A stretch of DNA of 39,239 nt from an uncultured Burkholderiales bacterium. GTDB taxonomy: Bacteria > Pseudomonadota > Gammaproteobacteria > Burkholderiales > Burkholderiaceae_C. Positions 6,354 through 37,388 of this stretch are shown piece by piece (position 1 is the stretch's first letter; every line of letters starts with the position of its first letter). Where the stretch lies: assembly GCA_903906635.1 (NCBI GenBank), contig CAIVLE010000047.1, forward strand, positions 1 to 39,239. The letters are read 5' to 3'. The position numbers were made by a program, and so were the translations under genes. Under the pieces are notes generated by a model. The model saw nothing but the letters and a program-made list of their open reading frames with translations. It was not told the origin of the DNA and made no database searches.

Positions 6354-6373
6354 GCACCGCCAGTGCTCGCTTC
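6347..6373. terminator. Bidirectional hairpin spanning the glnS and exbB stop codons
   Basis: An 11-bp stem (one T-G wobble) with a 5-nt loop: GAAGTGAGCAC at 6347-6357 pairs with GTGCTCGCTTC at 6363-6373. It contains the glnS TGA and two bases of the exbB stop. There is no T-tract on either strand, so intrinsic termination is only plausible. It could instead protect both 3' ends. Confidence 0.5.
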
Positions 6374-6959
6374 ACTGGTCGAAATGTCGAATGGTCGTGA
6401 TCGCCAGCACATGCTTGAATCGATCACACAAAACCTCAGTCCTGTTATTGAGCCAATTCAAGCTGACCAAAGCCGCCACGGCAATCCCAATCCCCAAGGC
6501 TGTGGCATACAGTGCGGTGCCAATGCCTGCGGCCACGCGTTCGCTGTCAGACACGCCTGAGGTGGCCAAGGCCACAAAGGTACCGATGATGCCCAAAATA
6601 GTACCCAGCAAGCCCAGCAACGGCGACGCAGTCACCACGGTGTCGAGTAGCCACAAGCGCGCAACCAATGCTGTTCGAACTTGGGTGAAAGCGGCCAACG
6701 TTGCCGCTTCTCGTTGCTGTTCGTGTTTGGCATTCATGAGCAAGCCATTGAACTCTTTGATGGCGAGGGAAATGACTTGAGTCGCCCCACCCGAGACCTT
6801 GCGGTTTTCGGGCAGGGGCGTGTTGATCAAGTCTTCCAAATGTGCAAAGTGTTCAGCAAACCACATGAACAACGAACGCTCGATGACCACTGCAATCGCC
6901 ACAAACAAACAAAGATAAAGCAAAACGAAGGTGGCGTCATGCAGTAGTTCGAGAGACAT
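6372..6959 (-). CDS. exbB: ExbB/TolQ/MotA-type proton channel subunit
   Basis: A 195-residue inner-membrane protein of the ExbB/TolQ family. With ExbD it converts proton-motive force into motion of TonB. Three transmembrane segments are visible (about 10-27, 112-132, 145-168) with the long cytoplasmic loop between TM1 and TM2. The family signatures 'ASPLLGLLGTILGIIGTF' and 'GIGTALYATALGIGIA' are present. An AAGGA ribosome site stands just ahead of the ATG. It is the last gene of the exbD-tonB-receptor-exbB operon, only 14 bp after the receptor stop, so it is separated from its partner exbD by two genes. Confidence 0.92.
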   Translation of the reverse strand: MSLELLHDATFVLLYLCLFVAIAVVIERSLFMWFAEHFAHLEDLINTPLPENRKVSGGATQVISLAIKEFNGLLMNAKHEQQREAATLAAFTQVRTALVARLWLLDTVVTASPLLGLLGTILGIIGTFVALATSGVSDSERVAAGIGTALYATALGIGIAVAALVSLNWLNNRTEVLCDRFKHVLAITTIRHFDQ

Positions 6960-6973
6960 AGGTTTCCTTGAAA

Positions 6974-9298
6974 TTAAAAGTCAGCTTGCAAGGACACACT
7001 CAGCATACGTGGTGCGCCGATGTAGTAGCGGGTGCTGGTGGCAGAGTAGCTGTTGCTTGGGCCCGTAGGTGACATGTACTCGCGGTTGAACAAGTTGCTG
7101 ACGTTGAGTTTGAGCAAGGTGCTCTTTTCAATCTTGTAGCCAGCATACAAATCAACCACCGTAAATCCGCTCACGTAGTCGTCGTTGACCAACGTCGAAT
7201 AAACGCGTCCGGTGTACTTGGCGCGCAGTTGACCCACAAATGCGCCTTCGGTGTATTGCGCCGACAAACCGCTCATCAGGCTAGGCGCCATCGGAAACTG
7301 TTTGCCCGATGTGGCCAACGTGGTGCTGCTGCCCGACTGCAAGTCGCTTTGCATCAAAGCCTCTTGGTAAGACAACGAAGCGTAGTAGCTCCAACCATTT
7401 TTAGGCTTGGTCCCCATTTCAAGTTCCAGACCCTGGTTTTTCACATTGCCCACGTTGGTGTAGGTGGACACCGCTGTGATGGGGTCATAGGCGTTGGCTT
7501 GGCGGTCTTTGAAGTTGACCGTGAAGAACGTGGCAGACCACACGATGTCATCGTTGGCCACACGGTAGCCAATGTCAACGTTGGTGGATGTCTCAGGTGC
7601 AATGGTTTGGAATTGCGGCACGTTGTTGACAAACTTCACGTTGCTGGAGGCATAGGCAAAGTTAGGTGGCGCCTTGAAGTTTTGTGCGACCGAGGCAAAC
7701 ACAGTCTCAGATGGAGACAACTTGAAGCTCGCACCTACGCTTGGAAGCAACTTGGAGTAATCACGCACGGTGTTGTACGTCATGGGGGCAGTCGAGCCAG
7801 TCGAGCCAGAAACCAAGCTCTGTCCGTCGTTGGCCGTCTCGGTGAAGTCTCGAGTGATTTTTGGTGTTCTGATGCCCACCACCACGTTGAGTTTTTCTTG
7901 CATCAAGGAGATGCTGTCTTGGCCAAACAACTGCGTCACGGTGGTCAAAGTTTTGTAGTCGCGTGAGTTGTAAGCCGCGCCAGTGGGTCGCAGAACGGGA
8001 TTATTTTGCAACCATGGGTCAAATTGACCGGTGGAGGATGCATACACGGCGGGGCCAGTCTGCAGGTGCGTGGCACGCTCATACCACCCCCCCAGGTTAA
8101 AGCTGTGGTTGTCGATTTGGTTGGTATACGTGGCAACCACCCCAGGGCGGTGAGTTTCGGTCAAGCTGCTGTTGGCGACTTGGTAAATATCGGTGGTGGT
8201 GCCGTTGCCGTTGAGGTCGACGTTGGTTGCTAACGCACCCGCGCTGTTGATCATTTTGGTGGAAGCTTCGTTGAAGGTTTTTTGCTGTGTTCCGCCAGTG
8301 CCAAAACCATACCAGTAGTAAGGCACCACGTTGAGCTGGGCAGCGCCACCTAGCTTGATGGTGGCATTGCCAGTCAGCAAGGCGTTTTCAAACGGGTTGA
8401 TGGCCATGCCGTAGTAAATGTTTTGATTGCTTGGGCTCGAACTCGCCGTACCAGGCGTGAAGGTGGCGGCGTAGTCGACGTTACGGCCATAGGTCGCGAT
8501 GTCGCTGCGAGTGGGCGTGTAAAAGTTGTTGTTGATGGCTCTGTTGTAAATCAAACCCATCGAGTAGCGGTTGCCACCGTCTCCGTCCAAGCTCACCTTG
8601 GCGTCGATGTGGTCGCGGTCTGCCTGCCCAGAACCCTTCCATTTGTCGACTTGAGACTTGGAATAGGAGATGAAAAATTTGGTGTTGGCCTCGCCAAACT
8701 TACCGGAGTCATAGCGCACATAGCTGCGCGACAAGTTGTAGCTGCCCAGGGTTTGAGAGGCGCGAATACGCTGGGTGTCTTCGGGGTCGCAGGTCACCAA
8801 ACCAATGTTGCCACCCGAAGCCCCAATGTGAGGTGCGCTGTTGTCGGTGGAGCCTTGCGTGACAAACATCTCGCACATGTTTTCGTTGTCGGTGTACTCC
8901 TGTGGGTAAACCGCAAAACTTCCGGAGTCATTCACAGGTGCGCCATCAATGGTGAAACCGATTTGGTCGCTGTTGAAGCCACGCATGGTCAAAGTGCCAC
9001 CGAACATACCCGTCGCATCGTGGCTGTAGGTATAGACACCGGGCAACAAGCTCAAGTTTTGATAGGGGTTCGCCGTGCCAGATTGCTTGTCAATGGCGGC
9101 CTTGTTCACGCTGCTGCGGGCCTTGGGCGTTTCTTCAATGGTGATCAAACCAGAGCCTAATTTGTCCCCCTCACCGGTGACTGAAATGGTGCCCAAGTTG
9201 GATTGGGCGTGCAGCACCATGGGAAACGCTGCAGCGACCAACAAAGCGGTGCCAGAGCGTCGAAGTTGGAATCGACGTGGGTGTGGAGTTGACTTCAC
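6974..9298 (-). CDS. TonB-dependent outer-membrane receptor
   Basis: 774 residues starting at GTG, chosen because GAAAGG sits about 7 nt upstream. An Arg-rich signal peptide ends near 'VLHAQS' (about residue 32). A TonB-box-like 'GTISVTG' follows, then a plug domain ('NLSLLPGVYTY', 'LTMRGFNSDQIGFTIDGAPVND') and a 22-strand-type barrel ending in the outer-membrane aromatic 'SLQADF'. Two Cys in the plug (near 'NMCEMF' and 'LVTCDPED') could form a disulfide. It lies 21 bp after tonB and 14 bp before exbB. The upstream phosphodiesterase and the phytase-like esterase suggest import of a phosphorylated organic ligand. That is inference; the ligand cannot be read from sequence. Confidence 0.93.
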   Translation of the reverse strand: MKSTPHPRRFQLRRSGTALLVAAAFPMVLHAQSNLGTISVTGEGDKLGSGLITIEETPKARSSVNKAAIDKQSGTANPYQNLSLLPGVYTYSHDATGMFGGTLTMRGFNSDQIGFTIDGAPVNDSGSFAVYPQEYTDNENMCEMFVTQGSTDNSAPHIGASGGNIGLVTCDPEDTQRIRASQTLGSYNLSRSYVRYDSGKFGEANTKFFISYSKSQVDKWKGSGQADRDHIDAKVSLDGDGGNRYSMGLIYNRAINNNFYTPTRSDIATYGRNVDYAATFTPGTASSSPSNQNIYYGMAINPFENALLTGNATIKLGGAAQLNVVPYYWYGFGTGGTQQKTFNEASTKMINSAGALATNVDLNGNGTTTDIYQVANSSLTETHRPGVVATYTNQIDNHSFNLGGWYERATHLQTGPAVYASSTGQFDPWLQNNPVLRPTGAAYNSRDYKTLTTVTQLFGQDSISLMQEKLNVVVGIRTPKITRDFTETANDGQSLVSGSTGSTAPMTYNTVRDYSKLLPSVGASFKLSPSETVFASVAQNFKAPPNFAYASSNVKFVNNVPQFQTIAPETSTNVDIGYRVANDDIVWSATFFTVNFKDRQANAYDPITAVSTYTNVGNVKNQGLELEMGTKPKNGWSYYASLSYQEALMQSDLQSGSSTTLATSGKQFPMAPSLMSGLSAQYTEGAFVGQLRAKYTGRVYSTLVNDDYVSGFTVVDLYAGYKIEKSTLLKLNVSNLFNREYMSPTGPSNSYSATSTRYYIGAPRMLSVSLQADF

Positions 9299-9319
9299 AG
9301 TAGACCTTTCAAGGATAAA

Positions 9320-10006
9320 TTAAGTGGGAAATTTGTAGTCCAGCTTCACGCAAAACGTGTGCTGCGCACTGCCTGCAAAACTGTTGTCGGGAATGGGGGG
9401 GTATTGAATGGCAGCCAGCTGTCTTTTGGCCGCCGTATCCAATAAAGCCGAAGTCGATGACTGCTGGATGAGGACTTCTTGCAAGGCGCCATCGCGCTTC
9501 AAAACGACACACGCAGAGACAATGCCTTGTGGTTTTTGCAAACTCGCCTCACGCCCTGTTGGATAGCGCTTGCTCGCCTCAATCAGCTGGCGAATTTGTG
9601 ACTCGAACTGGGGTTCGTTGTCGTTTTTTCTTTTCTCTGGGACGTCGTTGCTCGTCACCACGGGCTTGGCAGGTTCAGGCTTACTCACCTCTGGCGCAAC
9701 GGCGGGAGCAACCACCACCGACTCACGTGTAGAGACTTCCGACACGGCTTGTTGACTTGGTTTTTCAACGGGTCGTGGCGTGGCCTTTTCTGCCTTGGGT
9801 TGATTGACTGGCGCCGCTGGTGCAGGGGGCGGAAGAGGCGGCGGGTCGATCACCACCATGTTGTCATCGAGCTTGATGGGCGAATCCAAATGAATTTGAC
9901 CGATCAGGTAGACACACACGACCAAGCCCGCAGCCAGCCCCAAGCTCACGAGGTCGCGCAAGCCCAAGTCCAACGCCATCGAAGGCTGCGTCAGCGTGGC
10001 ATTCAT
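9320..10006 (-). CDS. tonB: TonB family energy transducer
   Basis: 228 residues. There is a short cytoplasmic N-terminus, one membrane anchor (about 19-40), then a Pro/Ala/Lys/Glu-rich periplasmic spacer (about 53-120, beginning 'DPPPLPPPAPAAP'). The C-terminal TonB domain (about 135-228) has the 'LIEASKRYPTGREAS' and 'KRQLAAIQYPPIP' elements. It spans the periplasm to couple ExbBD to the receptor. It begins inside the exbD stop (ATGA overlap), so translation is coupled. The receptor follows 21 bp later, pointing to a dedicated rather than housekeeping TonB. Confidence 0.92.
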   Translation of the reverse strand: MNATLTQPSMALDLGLRDLVSLGLAAGLVVCVYLIGQIHLDSPIKLDDNMVVIDPPPLPPPAPAAPVNQPKAEKATPRPVEKPSQQAVSEVSTRESVVVAPAVAPEVSKPEPAKPVVTSNDVPEKRKNDNEPQFESQIRQLIEASKRYPTGREASLQKPQGIVSACVVLKRDGALQEVLIQQSSTSALLDTAAKRQLAAIQYPPIPDNSFAGSAQHTFCVKLDYKFPT

Positions 10007-10419
10007 GGCGCAGCCTTTTTGGTAGCAATTGAGATGGCGTTGTAGCCAGCACCTTTGAGCACATCCAGCGTTTTGACAAAGTGACGGTACTCGACCGTTT
10101 CATCGCCATTGATGATGAGCACGGGGGTCTCGCCGGGCTTGACTTGCTTGGCGACGGTTTTTTGGAGGGTGTCAACATTGACCAATTCATCGCCAACGGC
10201 CAATTGACCATCGCGCTGGATGCTGATGATGATGGTTTGCTTGGCATGTTGCACGGAGGCATGCGCGGCAGACGGCAAACTCACCCCCAGCCCAAAGCCT
10301 GGGATCACGTTGATGCTGATCAAGACAAAAAAGACCAGCAAGAACATCATCACATCGATCATCGGAATGAGCTCTATCCGTGCCTTGTGACGTTTGGGGG
10401 TTTCTAAACTGCTGAACAA
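10003..10419 (-). CDS. exbD: ExbD/TolR biopolymer transport protein
   Basis: 138 residues from a TTG start. The single N-terminal membrane helix contains the proton-carrying Asp ('LIPMIDVMMFLLVFFVLI', Asp22), and a periplasmic ExbD/TolR domain follows. I prefer TTG at 10419 because it gives the usual ~15-20 residues before the helix ('MFSSLETPKRHKARIEL'). An in-frame GTG at 10488 would add 23 residues of unconserved-looking sequence. The helix and the 'GDETVEYRHFVKTLDVLKGAGY' segment are typical of ExbD. It heads the exbD-tonB-receptor-exbB operon and overlaps tonB by 4 bp. Confidence 0.88.
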   Translation of the reverse strand: MFSSLETPKRHKARIELIPMIDVMMFLLVFFVLISINVIPGFGLGVSLPSAAHASVQHAKQTIIISIQRDGQLAVGDELVNVDTLQKTVAKQVKPGETPVLIINGDETVEYRHFVKTLDVLKGAGYNAISIATKKAAP

Positions 10420-10605
10420 AAAACGCTTTCTAAGGACTCGTTGTGTGAACGATAGAAAGTTTTTGTTGCAGAAATATGAAGGACACACTCAGCTAAAAAT
10501 TAACCCGCACGACCTCGCTTGAAGTCACGCAGACGTCATTCAAAATTCATGGAAATTTCATTTCTTCGTCACGCACGCGTCGCTCGGGTGTGACGCAAGA
10601 CAGCC

Positions 10606-11841
10606 TCAAGGCTGCATGATTTGACGCGCTAGCGTGCCTTGTCCGTCGTTGGGTTGGGCCTCAATACCCAAGAGTTGGGTCAACAAACCGTAAACCTCTA
10701 GGTTGTCCACCAAACCGAGTTGGCGCTGACGGATCGCAGGTCCATGAACAATCAGCAAGCCGTGCATATCCTCGAGTTGCGGGTCATAGCCGTGTTGGCC
10801 AAGCGGTGTCTTGCGCGTTGGGTTGTCCGAAACGGCATACCCCTGTTCACTCAGACAAACGATGTCTGGGATACGTCGGTGGGTCCCAAACTTGAAACGC
10901 TTGGGCATCTCTTGTTTGAGCCAACACTGCACATGCGACAAAGTGGCTAAGGCGCCAAGCACGTCCTTGGCCGACTCACCATTCAAGCGAACCCCAGCCG
11001 TTGGCCCCAGCCACTCCCAGCGTGCCGCCGAAAAGGGCGCCAACAAGGATTTGACTTGGATCACTTGGTCTGGCGGCGCCAGCGACATGCCATGGTCTGA
11101 CACAACCACCAAGGTGGTGTGTTCAAGCAAATGACTTTCTTTCAATGCGGCCATCAACTTCCCAATCGACTGATCCACTTTCTGAGCGGCCAATCTCACC
11201 TGTGCGCTGTCAGGACCTGCGTTGTGCCCCGCAGAGTCCACGTCAGAAAAATAAAGGGTCGCAAAATCGGGGCGTTGGTCTGTGGGGCGCTTCAACCAAC
11301 CGAGGAGCACTTGCAGGCGGTCATCATGGGTCATCTCGTGGTTGTAGGGCAGCCAGTCGTTGGGGCGCATTCCTTGAATGGTGGTTTCTGAACCCGGCCA
11401 AAACAACGTGGAAGCAATTTTTCCTTGCTGTCGCAAACTCACCCAAATGGGGCGAGCCTCTTGCCACCAAAGAGGATTTTCAACCGCCTCACGTGAACCC
11501 AGCGTGAAGCGCTGAGGGGTCGCGGCATCGGTCATGGTGTTGTTGACGATGCCGTGGTGATCCGGTGTTTGTCCCGTGACCAGCGTGACGTGGTTGGGAA
11601 AGGTCAAGGATGGGAAAGCCGATATCAAGCCCTTGGCCTGCGCGCCCTCTTGGGCCAGTTGATACAGGTGTGGCGTTTCGGCGGCAGACAAGTAAGCGGG
11701 CTTGAAGCCATCGAGGCTGATCAAAATAACCAATGGCTTGGGTGCCAGCGCGGGGTCGATTGCCTGAGCGTGGCTACTGACGAGCCCCCCCACACTGCAT
11801 AGCAAGGCTGCGCAAAAGGCAAATACATTCTTCATTCTCAT
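10606..11841 (-). CDS. Exported alkaline phosphatase-superfamily protein (nucleotide pyrophosphatase/phosphodiesterase type)
   Basis: 411 residues from the ATG at 11841, chosen because GAGGA lies 8 nt upstream and a clean signal peptide follows ('MRMKNVFAFCAALLC...SSHAQA'). It is an NPP-type member of the alkaline phosphatase superfamily, a two-zinc enzyme hydrolysing phosphodiester or pyrophosphate bonds in the periplasm. Visible active-site elements are the metal Asp in 'ISLDGF' (~44), nucleophile Thr in 'SLTFPNHVT' (~80), 'GIVNNTM', 'SDVDSAGH', 'VVSDHGM' and the late His in 'GQHGYDP'. It is 117-190 bp upstream of exbD on the same strand and divergent from the phytase-like esterase. Substrate is unproven; nucleotides and other phosphodiesters are typical for the family. 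Confidence 0.9.
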   Translation of the reverse strand: MRMKNVFAFCAALLCSVGGLVSSHAQAIDPALAPKPLVILISLDGFKPAYLSAAETPHLYQLAQEGAQAKGLISAFPSLTFPNHVTLVTGQTPDHHGIVNNTMTDAATPQRFTLGSREAVENPLWWQEARPIWVSLRQQGKIASTLFWPGSETTIQGMRPNDWLPYNHEMTHDDRLQVLLGWLKRPTDQRPDFATLYFSDVDSAGHNAGPDSAQVRLAAQKVDQSIGKLMAALKESHLLEHTTLVVVSDHGMSLAPPDQVIQVKSLLAPFSAARWEWLGPTAGVRLNGESAKDVLGALATLSHVQCWLKQEMPKRFKFGTHRRIPDIVCLSEQGYAVSDNPTRKTPLGQHGYDPQLEDMHGLLIVHGPAIRQRQLGLVDNLEVYGLLTQLLGIEAQPNDGQGTLARQIMQP

Positions 11842-11869
11842 GGCGCAAATCCTCATTGAAATGGCTTGA

Positions 11870-11903
11870 ACCATAACTTTGGCACGTGAAACAACAGTGA
11901 CAG
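11870..11903 (-). promoter_or_regulatory. Candidate Pho box and -10 for the phosphodiesterase gene
   Basis: On the minus strand CTGTCAC-TGTT-GTTTCAC (11903-11886) resembles two 7-bp PhoB repeats with an 11-bp period. Ten bases further is TATGGT (11875-11870), a possible -10, about 28 bp before the chosen ATG. The first repeat is good, while the second and the spacer are weak. This is tentative. Confidence 0.3.
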
Positions 11904-11982
11904 GTGCAGACCAGGCCAATCAACACATCAATTCGTCACACAAGTAGGTCAACATGCTGTGCCATTTTGAAAGGATTTTTTC

Positions 11983-13329
11983 ATGGGTCAACTATGTGCC
12001 TGGGTTTGGATGTGTGTGGGGCTGGTTGTTTGGCTGCCCGCGCTTGCTCAAACAGAGTTCGCAGCAACTTTGACGCAACACGCTATGTTGCCTGCAAACA
12101 CCTTCATCCCCGCGCCCAGTGATGCGCCGCCCAACCTCAAGACCAGCGGTAAATTCACCACGGGCAAGCGCGTACAAGAGCTAGGCAGCGTGCCAGGTCT
12201 GTCCTCAGGTCGCCCCACCGGGGTGGGTCTGCCCTTTCAGGGGCAGCCCATTCAAGGACATTCGGGCATCCAACGCATGAAGGACGGCACGTTTTGGATA
12301 CTCACCGACAACGGCGCTGGCACCAAAGCCAACTCAGCCGACTTCATGCTCCATCTGAACCACTACCAAGTGGATTTCAACACCCATCAATTCCAGCGCT
12401 TAGAGACCATTTTTTTGCATGATCCCGATCAGAAAGTGCCCTTTCACATCGTGACCGAAGGCACTGACAAGCGCTACTTGACGGGGGCTGACTTTGACCC
12501 GGAGAGTTTTCAAATCACGCACGATGCATTGTGGATCGGAGACGAGTTCGGCCCCTTTCTCATCCAAGCCGACTTGACGGGCAAAGTGTTGGCAATTTAT
12601 GAAACACAAGTCGAGGGACGCGTGGTTCGCTCACCCGACCACCCATCCCTCACAACACCCAGCAGCCCCCAAGACGCCCTCGCGTTTGAGGTGCGTCGCT
12701 CCAAGGGGTTTGAAGGCATGGCGGCCTCCAAAGACGGAAAAAAACTCTATGCGTTGCTCGAAGGTGCCTTGTGGGACAACCAGACCCAAGCTTACGAAAT
12801 GCACAATGCTCAACACTATCTGCGCGTTTTGGAATTTGACATTCAAACCAAAAACTGGACAGGGCGTCACTGGAAATATCCCTTAGAAGCCAATCACCAC
12901 GCCATTGGTGACTTCAATATGATCGATGAGACCACGGGGCTGATCATTGAACGAGACAACGGTGAGGGGGTAGCCGCCCACCGATGCACGCAAGGCAAGA
13001 AACCAGACTGCTTTCATGATTTGCCCAAGTTCAAGCGCGTCTACAAAGTAGAGATGAACGACGCCAACGTCAATGGCCTGTTGCGCAAAGTCTCTTTCAT
13101 TGACCTGCTCAACATCGCAGACCCTCACCACGTTTCCCATAAACCCCTGGACGAGGGGGTGTTCAAGTTCCCCTTTTTCACGATCGAAAACGTTGATGTC
13201 ATCGATGACCATCACATCATCGTGGGCAACGACAACAACTTGCCTTTTTCTTCCAGCAGACAACCCAACCAAGCCGATGACAACGAGTTGGTTATTTTGT
13301 TTGTCGGGGACTTTTTAAAAGTCAACTGA
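11983..13329 (+). CDS. Exported phytase-like esterase domain protein (PF13449 type)
   Basis: 448 residues. A hydrophobic signal peptide ends near 'LPALAQ' (about residue 23). The rest matches the 'esterase-like activity of phytase' family in style: a beta-propeller-like protein with 'GHSGIQRMKDGTFWILTDNGAG', 'FDPESFQITHDALWIGDEFGPFL', 'SKGFEGMAASKDG' and a late 'IIVGNDNNLPFSSSRQ'. Members are secreted and often annotated as phytase or phosphoesterase, although few are characterised. An AAAGGA ribosome site stands 9 nt before the ATG. It is divergent from the NPP-type phosphodiesterase with 141 bp between them, which suggests shared control and organic-phosphate use. Its 3' end overlaps the convergent SRAP gene by 8 bp. 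Confidence 0.85.
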   Translation: MGQLCAWVWMCVGLVVWLPALAQTEFAATLTQHAMLPANTFIPAPSDAPPNLKTSGKFTTGKRVQELGSVPGLSSGRPTGVGLPFQGQPIQGHSGIQRMKDGTFWILTDNGAGTKANSADFMLHLNHYQVDFNTHQFQRLETIFLHDPDQKVPFHIVTEGTDKRYLTGADFDPESFQITHDALWIGDEFGPFLIQADLTGKVLAIYETQVEGRVVRSPDHPSLTTPSSPQDALAFEVRRSKGFEGMAASKDGKKLYALLEGALWDNQTQAYEMHNAQHYLRVLEFDIQTKNWTGRHWKYPLEANHHAIGDFNMIDETTGLIIERDNGEGVAAHRCTQGKKPDCFHDLPKFKRVYKVEMNDANVNGLLRKVSFIDLLNIADPHHVSHKPLDEGVFKFPFFTIENVDVIDDHHIIVGNDNNLPFSSSRQPNQADDNELVILFVGDFLKVN

Positions 13330-34591: not shown

Positions 34592-35254
34592 ATGAAACAA
34601 ATCGCCGACCTTCGCAAAAGTTATGAACGTGCCGAACTGAACGAATCAGCGTCGGCTGCCGACCCCATGCAACAGTTTGAGCTGTGGCTCAACGAGGCCA
34701 TTCAATCCGAGTTGCCCGAGCCCAACGCCATGACCTTGGCCACGGTGGGCGGCGACTTGCGCCCCAGCACTCGGGTGGTGCTGATCAAAGGCTACGACGC
34801 GCGCGGCATCGTGTGGTTCACCAACTACCAAAGCCGCAAAGGCCAGCAACTTGCGGGCAATCCGTTTGCCGCCCTGCAATTTCATTGGGTCGAGTTGGAA
34901 CGCGTGGTGCGCATCGAGGGCCGGGTGGAAAAAGTCAGCGAAGCCGACAGCGACGCCTACTTTCACAGCCGCCCACTGGACTCACGCATTGGGGCCTGGG
35001 CGAGCCCGCAAAGCCAAGTCATCGAAGGCCGTGGCACGTTGGTGGCCAATGCGGCCAAGTACGGCGCGCAGTTTTTGCTGCAACCGCCCCGCCCCCCACA
35101 CTGGGGAGGCTACCGCTTGGTGCCCGATCAGTGGGAGTTTTGGCAAGGACGCAAAAGCCGCCTGCACGACCGCCTACGCTATCGGCTTGCCGTGAGCGAG
35201 GACTCTGATAGCGCGAACGCGTCGGGTTGGGTACGCGATCGCTTGGCCCCCTAA
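34592..35254 (+). CDS. pdxH: Pyridoxamine/pyridoxine 5'-phosphate oxidase
   Basis: 220 residues, close to E. coli PdxH (218). FMN- and oxygen-dependent; makes pyridoxal 5'-phosphate from PNP or PMP. Signatures: '[27 protein letters not shown]', '[20 protein letters not shown]', and the C-terminal block at ~173-197 ('[15 protein letters not shown]' then 'RLHDRLRY'). Its TAA overlaps the TAG of the convergent receptor gene (CTAA at 35251-35254). Confidence 0.96.
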
Positions 35255-37317
35255 AAACCAGCCTGCAAGCCGACTTTGGCACTGCGCCCGGCCAAAGGAG
35301 GGGCGTTGGAGCCCATGCTTTGGGTCAAGACCGAGGTAGACGAGTAGGCCAGTTGGTTGGTGAGGTTTTCAAGCTTGGCAAACACCAGCCAGCGCACACC
35401 CGCTGCTCGGGTGTGGTAGTTCAAGCCCACGTTCCACAAGGTGTAGCTGGCCGTGGTGACGTCGCTTGCTTGGGGCACACGGTGTTGGGCAGCGGCATGC
35501 GTGAATCCCAAGCGCGCGCCCCAGGCCTGTTGCGTCAACACCCAGTCAGCCCCCACACGCATGGGGGCAATGCGCGGCAGCGCTTGGTTGTGCGTGAGGT
35601 CATCCGCGCGCACCACATCGCCGCGCAAGGCCAAATCCATGGCGCCCCACGAGGCGTTTGAGCTCCACAAAGCTTGACTGCCCCCGACCATGCGCAACGA
35701 AGCACTTGACTCCAAGCCCACCAAGCGCGCGCGAACGCCTTGCAAGGCATAGACGGGCAGCTGGTGCAGGGCATCCGTGGCACCGGTGGATTGGAGTGAC
35801 AGGTAATTGGCAAACTCAGACGCAAAGCCGGTGAGAGAAGCCGTGTGAGGCCCGCTCTTGTAGGCCCCTCCAAGGTCTATTTGAGTGGCTTTTTCCATCG
35901 CGCTGTTGACATTGCCCACCTCAAACGTGCCCGTAGCCGCGTGCGGGCCATTGGCAAACAGCTCGTAGTCTTTGGGGGCGCGTTGGCTCCAACTCAGATG
36001 GCTGGTGAGTTGCCACCCGTCTTGAGCCTCTCCTTGGCGCAAGTTGCGCATGCCCCCAAAGGCCAGCGTCAAGGGGTTAAAGGCTTTGTCTATGCCCGTG
36101 TCTTGGTTGCGCACCGCCACAGCCTCCGCGCGTGCACCTGCACTGAGCTCCCCCCAGCCTGTGGTCAAGACTTGGTGCGTGAACACCGCGTTGCTGAGTG
36201 TGCGACTCGCCGGCACAAAGGCCTCAGCGCCCTGCACGGCCAACTGGCTGCCTTCGCGCTGCAGCCCCACCACACCTTGGAGCTGCCAGCCATTGGCCAA
36301 AGCTCGGGCATAGGGCGTGGCTTGCAAGCGAAGCTCGTGTCCGCCGTTGTCAAATCGCGTGCCGGTCTGTGCCCCCGGGTATTCGGTGTGGCTGTAACGG
36401 GTATGACCCCATTGGAACTTGAGCGCTTGAAGCCACGCGGAGACATCACGCCATTGCCCCTCCACCACCTGCTGGCGGCGCAGCATGCCGATGCTCACAT
36501 CTGGTTCGGCCACTGTGCCGTAGGTGCTTCGGTACTCGCTGCTGGAGGCTCCCAAATAGCCGCGATCGAACAACAACGTGCCCCCGGCCGCTGTGCCTTG
36601 GGAGTTGCTGGCTGAATTGCACACCCGCCGCTGCGAGGAGGTCACCCCATTGAGTGTGCAGTCCATGAGCTTGGGAACCACCAAATTGCTTGTGCTGCGA
36701 TCCATTGCGTCGACATGCAGCACCCAACGCTCGTTGCCAGTCTCCACCAAGGCAGCGCTGCTGCGCTCGTGGGAGGCCCCCCCAGCACGCAGCTCAGCCT
36801 TGCCCAACACACCGCCTTGCTCGTCAAACGTGCGTTCACGGGCAATCCGGTGGTCGATCACGTTGACCAAACCCCCGACCGCACTGCTGCTGTACAACAA
36901 GGTAGCTGGGCCACGCAGGACTTCGATGCGCTCGCTCGTGAGCGGGTCCAGGGGAACCGCATGGTCAAAGCTCAAGCCCGAGACGTCCATGTTTGCGCCA
37001 CTGTTTTGCAAGATACGAATGCGCTCGCCCTCCAAGCCCCGAATCACCGGGCGACCCACGTTGGGCCCAAACGAGCTGTTGGCCACTCCGGGCAAGTTGT
37101 CTAGCGTTTCGCCTAAGGTGCTGCCAAGTCTTTGGGCCAGCGCCGAGCCCGAGAGTTGTTGCGCGGGCACAGACAGGCTGGCATGGGGTGAGGGTTGCGC
37201 CGTGATGGTCACCTCTTCAAGCGCCGTGGCGGGAGCGCCTGAGGTTTGCGACCAAGCGATTGACCAACTGCCCCAAGCCGCAGCGGCGAGCAGGCTGCGA
37301 AGAAAAAACAAACTCAT
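35251..37317 (-). CDS. TonB-dependent receptor, ZnuD-like (probable zinc uptake)
   Basis: 688 residues from the ATG at 37317, preferred because a signal peptide starts there ('[24 protein letters not shown]'). A TonB-box-like 'LEEVTITAQ' follows the signal. The plug has '[20 protein letters not shown]' and the ZnuD-type stretch '[25 protein letters not shown]', then '[13 protein letters not shown]'. The barrel ends in 'KVGLQAGF' with a terminal Phe. A pair of Cys occurs in a large loop ('MDCTLNG...RVCNSAS'). By resemblance to ZnuD I infer Zn2+ or a similar metal. It follows a small Cys/His-rich exported protein gene by 71 bp and msrA before that, probably one operon. Confidence 0.85.
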
Positions 37318-37388
37318 GTGTGTGTCCCACGAAGAAGAATTGACCACGTGAGCAGCACCGCGCCACCCACGCAAACGAGAAGGTCAGT

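Follow-up and report, generated by a model that had tools for sequence, protein, structure and literature searches.

A likely phosphate-starvation locus in an uncultured Burkholderiales bacterium: a TonB-dependent receptor with neighbouring exbB, exbD and tonB genes, paired with an NPP-type phosphodiesterase

To our knowledge, the passage across the outer membrane of organic phosphorus above porin size is poorly defined outside Bacteroidota. The PUS loci of Flavobacterium hold TonB-dependent transporters (PusCD) that are induced by phosphate depletion and lie beside periplasmic phosphodiesterases, and for which import of organic phosphorus is proposed (PMC8115612). In Caulobacter crescentus, several TonB receptors are under PhoB control, as are a nucleotide pyrophosphatase and a phytase; in the text consulted these are regulon members, not described as a single cluster with its own energiser (PMC11208175). 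In Nodularia, an 'esterase-like activity of phytase' protein, classed in that study as an atypical alkaline phosphatase, is strongly induced by phosphate limitation (PMC9846622). Two other studies give further background (PMC2996285; PMC10132767). Among the matches listed from the open literature, we found no description of a receptor linked to ExbB-ExbD-TonB and to a nucleotide pyrophosphatase/phosphodiesterase (NPP) under PhoB.

The locus described here resembles the PUS loci in that a receptor stands beside a phosphodiesterase. However, PusCD has a SusD-like lid, whereas the present cluster includes exbB, exbD and tonB, and a SusD-like protein, which a PUS would have, is absent among the ten proteins scanned between positions 1237 and 14041. 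The Nodularia protein, from a cyanobacterium, bears the same family name as the PF13449 protein of our locus. The general idea is already known, and a cluster lacking SusD, with its own ExbB-ExbD-TonB and an NPP pairing, is a variant of it. Tight pairing with an enzyme, an energiser of its own and, in relatives, pstS-like promoters make this receptor family open to direct testing. The family also points to nucleotides or nucleosides as a ligand class for receptors that, in databases, match siderophore-type proteins best.

The window, i.e., the whole stretch of 39,239 nucleotides analysed, is contig C47 in an assembly of 3.0 Mb and 262 contigs. The six genes that a first-pass annotation had assigned to a phosphoester-scavenging system all lie where it had placed them (Table 1), and their Pfam matches exceed the curated cut-offs in a scan of the same ten proteins. 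Nothing unusual is found among the remaining four: an SRAP protein flanks the six genes on one side, and a class I Glx-type tRNA synthetase, an MFS protein and a subtilase flank them on the other. Sec-type signal peptides, judged by eye, open the NPP, the PF13449 protein and the receptor, as had been claimed, and no N-terminal signalling domain occurs among the Pfam matches of the receptor. The proposed tight operon holds from exbB to exbD, with gaps of 14 and 21 nt and a tonB/exbD overlap of 4 nt. The end of the NPP is separated by 117 nt from the listed exbD start, so that NPP and exbD may or may not share a transcript. The true start of exbD is probably inside the listed start of its ORF, and the NPP probably starts at the ATG at 11841 or 11835, preceded by GAGG (read by eye). 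The energiser had been called private; the genome holds 8 ExbD matches. The same gene order, with a receptor 98% identical to that of the window, is found in an uncultured Burkholderiales MAG (L046). At the far end of the window, a second TonB-dependent receptor (PF07715, PF00593) spans 35251-37374.

Table 1. Features of the locus, numbered by position in the window.
Feature	Position	Strand	Match or sequence
ExbB (exbB-like proton channel subunit)	6372..6959	-	PF01618, E 3e-23
TonB-dependent receptor, plug and barrel	6974..9298	-	PF00593 + PF07715
tonB-like energy transducer	9320..10006	-	PF03544 (TonB_C), 26.3 bits vs cut-off 24.6
exbD-like subunit	10003..10488	-	PF02472, E 2e-30
Array of five KTCAY half-sites, 11 bp apart	10524..10572	+	reversed relative to exbD
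Exported NPP-type phosphodiesterase / nucleotide pyrophosphatase	10606..11841 (ORF listed 10606-11919)	-	PF01663 (Phosphodiest), E 7e-88
Candidate PhoB promoter of NPP	11870..11903	-	CTGTCAC-TGTT-GTTTCAC, 10 nt, TATGGT
Exported PF13449 ('phytase-like') protein, divergent	11983..13329	+	PF13449, E 6e-59

The NPP aligns over nearly the whole catalytic domain with 2gsn (E 1e-84), which we take to be the Xanthomonas NPP, and keeps the nucleophile and two-metal ligand motifs. It thus combines a PF01663 domain with the catalytic and metal motifs of an NPP, and NPP activity is predicted for it. The enzyme and the receptor travel together. Among 84 genomes of the same genus, the receptor is present in 14, the NPP in 13 and both in 13 (hypergeometric p 2e-14, a value that overstates independence because these genomes are related); all 13 NPP genomes have the receptor, and 13 of the 14 receptor genomes have the NPP, the sole one without an NPP match (G330) being 87% complete. 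In the 40 high-quality genomes, receptor and NPP each occur in the identical 9. The NPP lies directly upstream of exbD in the window and in L046, L065, L066, L068 and L069, is divergent from exbD in L170, and is on a separate contig from the receptor in six same-genus genomes, in one of them (G335) owing to a cut contig. As the NPP is not adjacent in several genomes, linkage alone cannot account for the co-occurrence. In a sample of 299 genomes of the family, the NPP is found in 4, three of which have the receptor; the fourth (G251) has no receptor match, and its NPP lies near phoA.

The receptor itself has a match at E 1e-30 in 18 genomes of the family sample, its own included, and a class-wide search of 369 genomes at E 1e-80 returned no receptor besides that of the window genome. 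Thirteen other family receptors at 44-48% identity have a PF02872 5'-nucleotidase within ~10 kb (8 receptors), an NPP and PhoA (2) or neither (3). Among the matches listed in 14 genomes, a 5'-nucleotidase domain is found no more than 12 kb away for 7 of 10 orthologues and for 0 of 137 other receptors (150 hand-typed of 438 matches, less 3 rows of G344, where 5'-nucleotidases were not searched; the two receptors each of G385 and G552 are counted separately). At the order level, 6 of 17 neighbourhoods contain a 5'-nucleotidase, 2 contain PhoD and a PF01663 protein, and one more contains a PnrA-type ABC set. Nucleoside-salvage genes are found in several places: L032 has an adenosine deaminase, a PnrA-like binding protein, ABC genes and a nucleoside phosphorylase near the receptor; L037 has ABC genes, purine- and pyrimidine-type phosphorylases and, where phosphopentomutase would usually lie, a Metalloenzyme-domain gene; and in L138 a PnrA-like ABC set accompanies the exb genes. 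Because receptor relatives lie near 5'-nucleotidases and nucleoside-salvage genes, the ligand is probably nucleotide- or nucleoside-like rather than phytate. An in-frame stop interrupts the receptor orthologue found in G092 (L038, 8018-10444), which could mean a pseudogene or a misassembly.

The first-pass annotation had staked its reading on phosphoesterase genes recurring beside receptor orthologues, and this expectation is borne out in 23 of the 42 neighbourhoods fetched, which have an NPP, 5'-nucleotidase, PhoA or PhoD. The reading is thus not refuted by this check, although a large minority (19 of 42) have none of these. The count was made by hand outside the window's species and divides into 5 of 12 in the genus (L065-L074, L170, L172), 10 of 13 in the family (L028-L040) and 8 of 17 in the order (L127-L143); unlabelled neighbours were scanned in part, and the short contigs L067, L070, L073 and L172 may conceal neighbours. 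L173, the other end of G346, is outside the count, as are the weaker matches at 26-32% identity (L041-L045, L144, L145), among which L042 has a 5'-nucleotidase, L043 an S1/P1 nuclease and L045 PF01663 proteins. Several neighbourhoods are of Pho type. PhoA precedes the exb set and the NPP follows it in L031 and L034, the latter with PstS, Ppx and CHAD in addition, and a PstS-like protein, an OprB porin, an OlsB-type acyltransferase and a metallophosphoesterase lie near the set in L071 and L072, the latter also with PPK.

Promoters were compared with a Pho-box model taken from pstS genes. A first matrix of our own, built from the E. coli consensus, served to choose boxes upstream of PstS-family matches, which gave 12 boxes from 12 genomes out of 23 loci; the unused loci held paralogues, wrongly picked frames or weaker boxes (e.g., L088, L093). 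The pstS-based matrix was derived from these 12 boxes and is not fully independent of that consensus. The 12 pstS promoters include that of the window's own genome, and 11 have a TANNNT hexamer exactly 10 nt downstream of the box; the composite score gives this spacing a bonus of 1 bit relative to 9 and 11 nt. Controls were 219 genes from the same-genus loci and the window, all unlabelled and none shorter than 150 aa. Outside the window's species, all 11 readable same-genus exbD promoters show a PhoB-box-like pair, 10 nt and a -10-like hexamer (TANNNT in 7, xACAAT in 4), with 0 to 11 of the 219 control genes scoring as high; nine of them were also compared by alignment, and the 11 represent a few related groups, not 11 independent cases. 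In L070-L074 and L172, TAGACT or TAAACT ends ~6-7 nt before the likely start codon of exbD, as if these transcripts were leaderless.

Within the window, the candidate PhoB promoter precedes the NPP. Its composite score is 15.3, which 9 of the 219 control genes reach, and three high-scoring controls are themselves of Pho type (OprB-, PhoX- and PPK-family). By the pstS model, the box alone scores 9.6, short of the 12.4 that marks the 95th percentile among 616 control genes, and it ranks fifth in the window by the pstS-based matrix and second by the consensus matrix. The box is identical in L046, where the flanks have changed. No convincing sense-strand box was found upstream of the window's exbD (26 of 219 controls as high), and none that is clear before the NPPs of L166-L168; four TatT promoters are weaker as well (6 to 18 of 219 controls as high). 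Outside the genus, the control 95th percentile is reached by 1 of 13 exbD promoters, by 2 of 12 receptors of the 5'-nucleotidase type and by 1 of 8 of their 5'-nucleotidases, so the pstS-like layout is mostly absent there.

Between NPP and exbD lies an array of half-sites that looks like a set of putative PhoB/OmpR-type sites. The motif matches once in the window and in 0 of 100 shuffles, and the half-sites are kept in L046 while the spacers have diverged. The array contains the window's two best matches to the pstS model, but both are wrongly oriented to serve exbD and both lack a -10-like hexamer at 10 nt.

The trees set the receptor and the enzyme apart. In the receptor tree, from which L038 (split by the stop), L044, L045, L067, L144, L145, L170, L172 and L173 were omitted, the window receptor is sister to the 5'-nucleotidase-linked clade (100/97), apart from the same-genus Pho-box receptors, and the exb label requires at least 4 changes. 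The joint ExbB-ExbD tree places the window on a long branch of its own, to which the long-branch warning applies, and not with the same-genus Pho-box set. By contrast with the receptor, the window NPP groups with TRAP-linked NPPs (100/99). The locus thus looks like a mosaic, in which the pairing is unchanged and the receptor and energiser appear to come from another lineage. Since the window receptor and ExbB/ExbD fall outside the same-genus Pho-box set, regulation is carried over to them by analogy of layout and by the grouping of the NPP.

The PF13449 gene, which had been put forward as a partner of the receptor, is present independently of it (2 of 8 genomes shared, p 0.40): orthologues at 65-74% occur in 6 further same-genus genomes, none of which has the receptor. 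Of seven loci fetched, six lie near PhoX, PhoA, OlsA/OlsB, PPK, Ppx or DctP-DctM, and the seventh is a 3-kb contig. Given this independence and these Pho-type neighbourhoods, the gene would belong to the same stress response, outside the receptor machine; as a partner it was rejected on co-occurrence, and it is retained as a Pho-type neighbour. The protein has PF13449 as its sole domain match, 'phytase-like' being a family name only; no solved relative was found at E up to 1, and a single-sequence structure model reached a mean pLDDT of 36. Alignment revealed no shared Pho box before these genes, and 1 of 8 of their promoters is at the control 95th percentile.

With a probability of roughly 0.6, we read the whole as a phosphate-starvation acquisition locus in which PhoB drives the NPP and the receptor set for the import of a nucleotide-like phosphoester. 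At low phosphate, PhoB would induce the NPP together with exbD-tonB-receptor-exbB, the latter either directly or by read-through. Powered by the neighbouring ExbB-ExbD-TonB, the receptor would import into the periplasm a nucleotide-like phosphoester whose size or low concentration makes porins inadequate, and the NPP would cleave its phosphodiester or pyrophosphate bond there. Other periplasmic phosphatases would then free phosphate for entry via PstSCAB, while uptake of an organic product may fall to a Pho-linked TRAP transporter (TatT-DctP-DctM). The first-pass annotation had likewise, as inference, linked enzyme to receptor and named phosphorus as the purpose. Both points gain from the co-occurrence, the PhoB-box-like promoters in relatives and the Pho-type neighbourhoods; the PF13449 gene drops out as a receptor partner, and the ligand class suggested is nucleotide- or nucleoside-like instead of phytate.

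The receptor could instead import nucleosides or nucleobases for carbon, nitrogen or salvage, with the NPP trimming nucleotides and phosphorus being secondary, as its sister clade and the salvage-type neighbours in L032, L037 and L138 might suggest. We consider this unlikely, given that none of 20 scanned window proteins is a nucleoside-salvage protein and that NPP-linked relatives lie among Pho-type genes, with boxes within the genus. Nor does a phosphorus locus need a nucleotide-like ligand: PF01663 enzymes also act on lipid-type diesters, and a PF11899 gene, presumably for betaine-lipid synthesis, is divergent in four TRAP-linked relatives, which would fit a lipid head-group diester, phytate or other phosphoester. 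Among solved structures, however, a bacterial nucleotide-type NPP matches best, and the sister receptors pair with 5'-nucleotidases, which makes such a ligand improbable. Least credible, with a very small chance of being right, is import of iron or another metal complex, with the NPP adjacent by chance; the weak similarity to siderophore receptors that speaks for it is a trait of many TonB-dependent receptors. Against it stand the siderophore-family score of 97 versus a cut-off of 223.5 bits, the NPP-receptor co-occurrence and the search for Fur-like sites, whose best score, 10 of 19, is equalled in 71-87% of shuffles. Iron uptake under Fur was therefore rejected, as no such site was found and the siderophore-family score is far under the cut-off.

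The preferred reading, nucleotide-like phosphoester import under PhoB, may be part of a wider scheme, which we put forward tentatively and think somewhat doubtful. In it, a Burkholderiales family of nucleotide/nucleoside receptors would have two wirings: one to 5'-nucleotidases and nucleoside catabolism, the other a PhoB route in which ExbB-ExbD-TonB, NPP and a TatT-type TRAP transporter would form a complete path from outer to inner membrane. The window would then have had its receptor module swapped with the pairing kept. The order TatT-DctP-DctM-NPP-exbD-tonB-receptor-exbB is found in four loci (L065, L066, L068, L069), each with the divergent PF11899 gene. We label PF01553, PF13444 and PF11899 proteins OlsA, OlsB and BtaA, which we take them to be. 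In the window's genome, contig C48 carries TatT-DctP-DctM together with OlsA-, OlsB-, metallophosphoesterase- and PPK-like genes. Several Pho-box-like sites occur there; that upstream of TatT reads TTGTCAC-CGCA-TTTTCAC, 10 nt, TAGAGT. The TatT-type TRAP transporter recurs among phosphate-starvation-type genes in L065 (13058-16775), L178 (8745-12397), L147 and L149.
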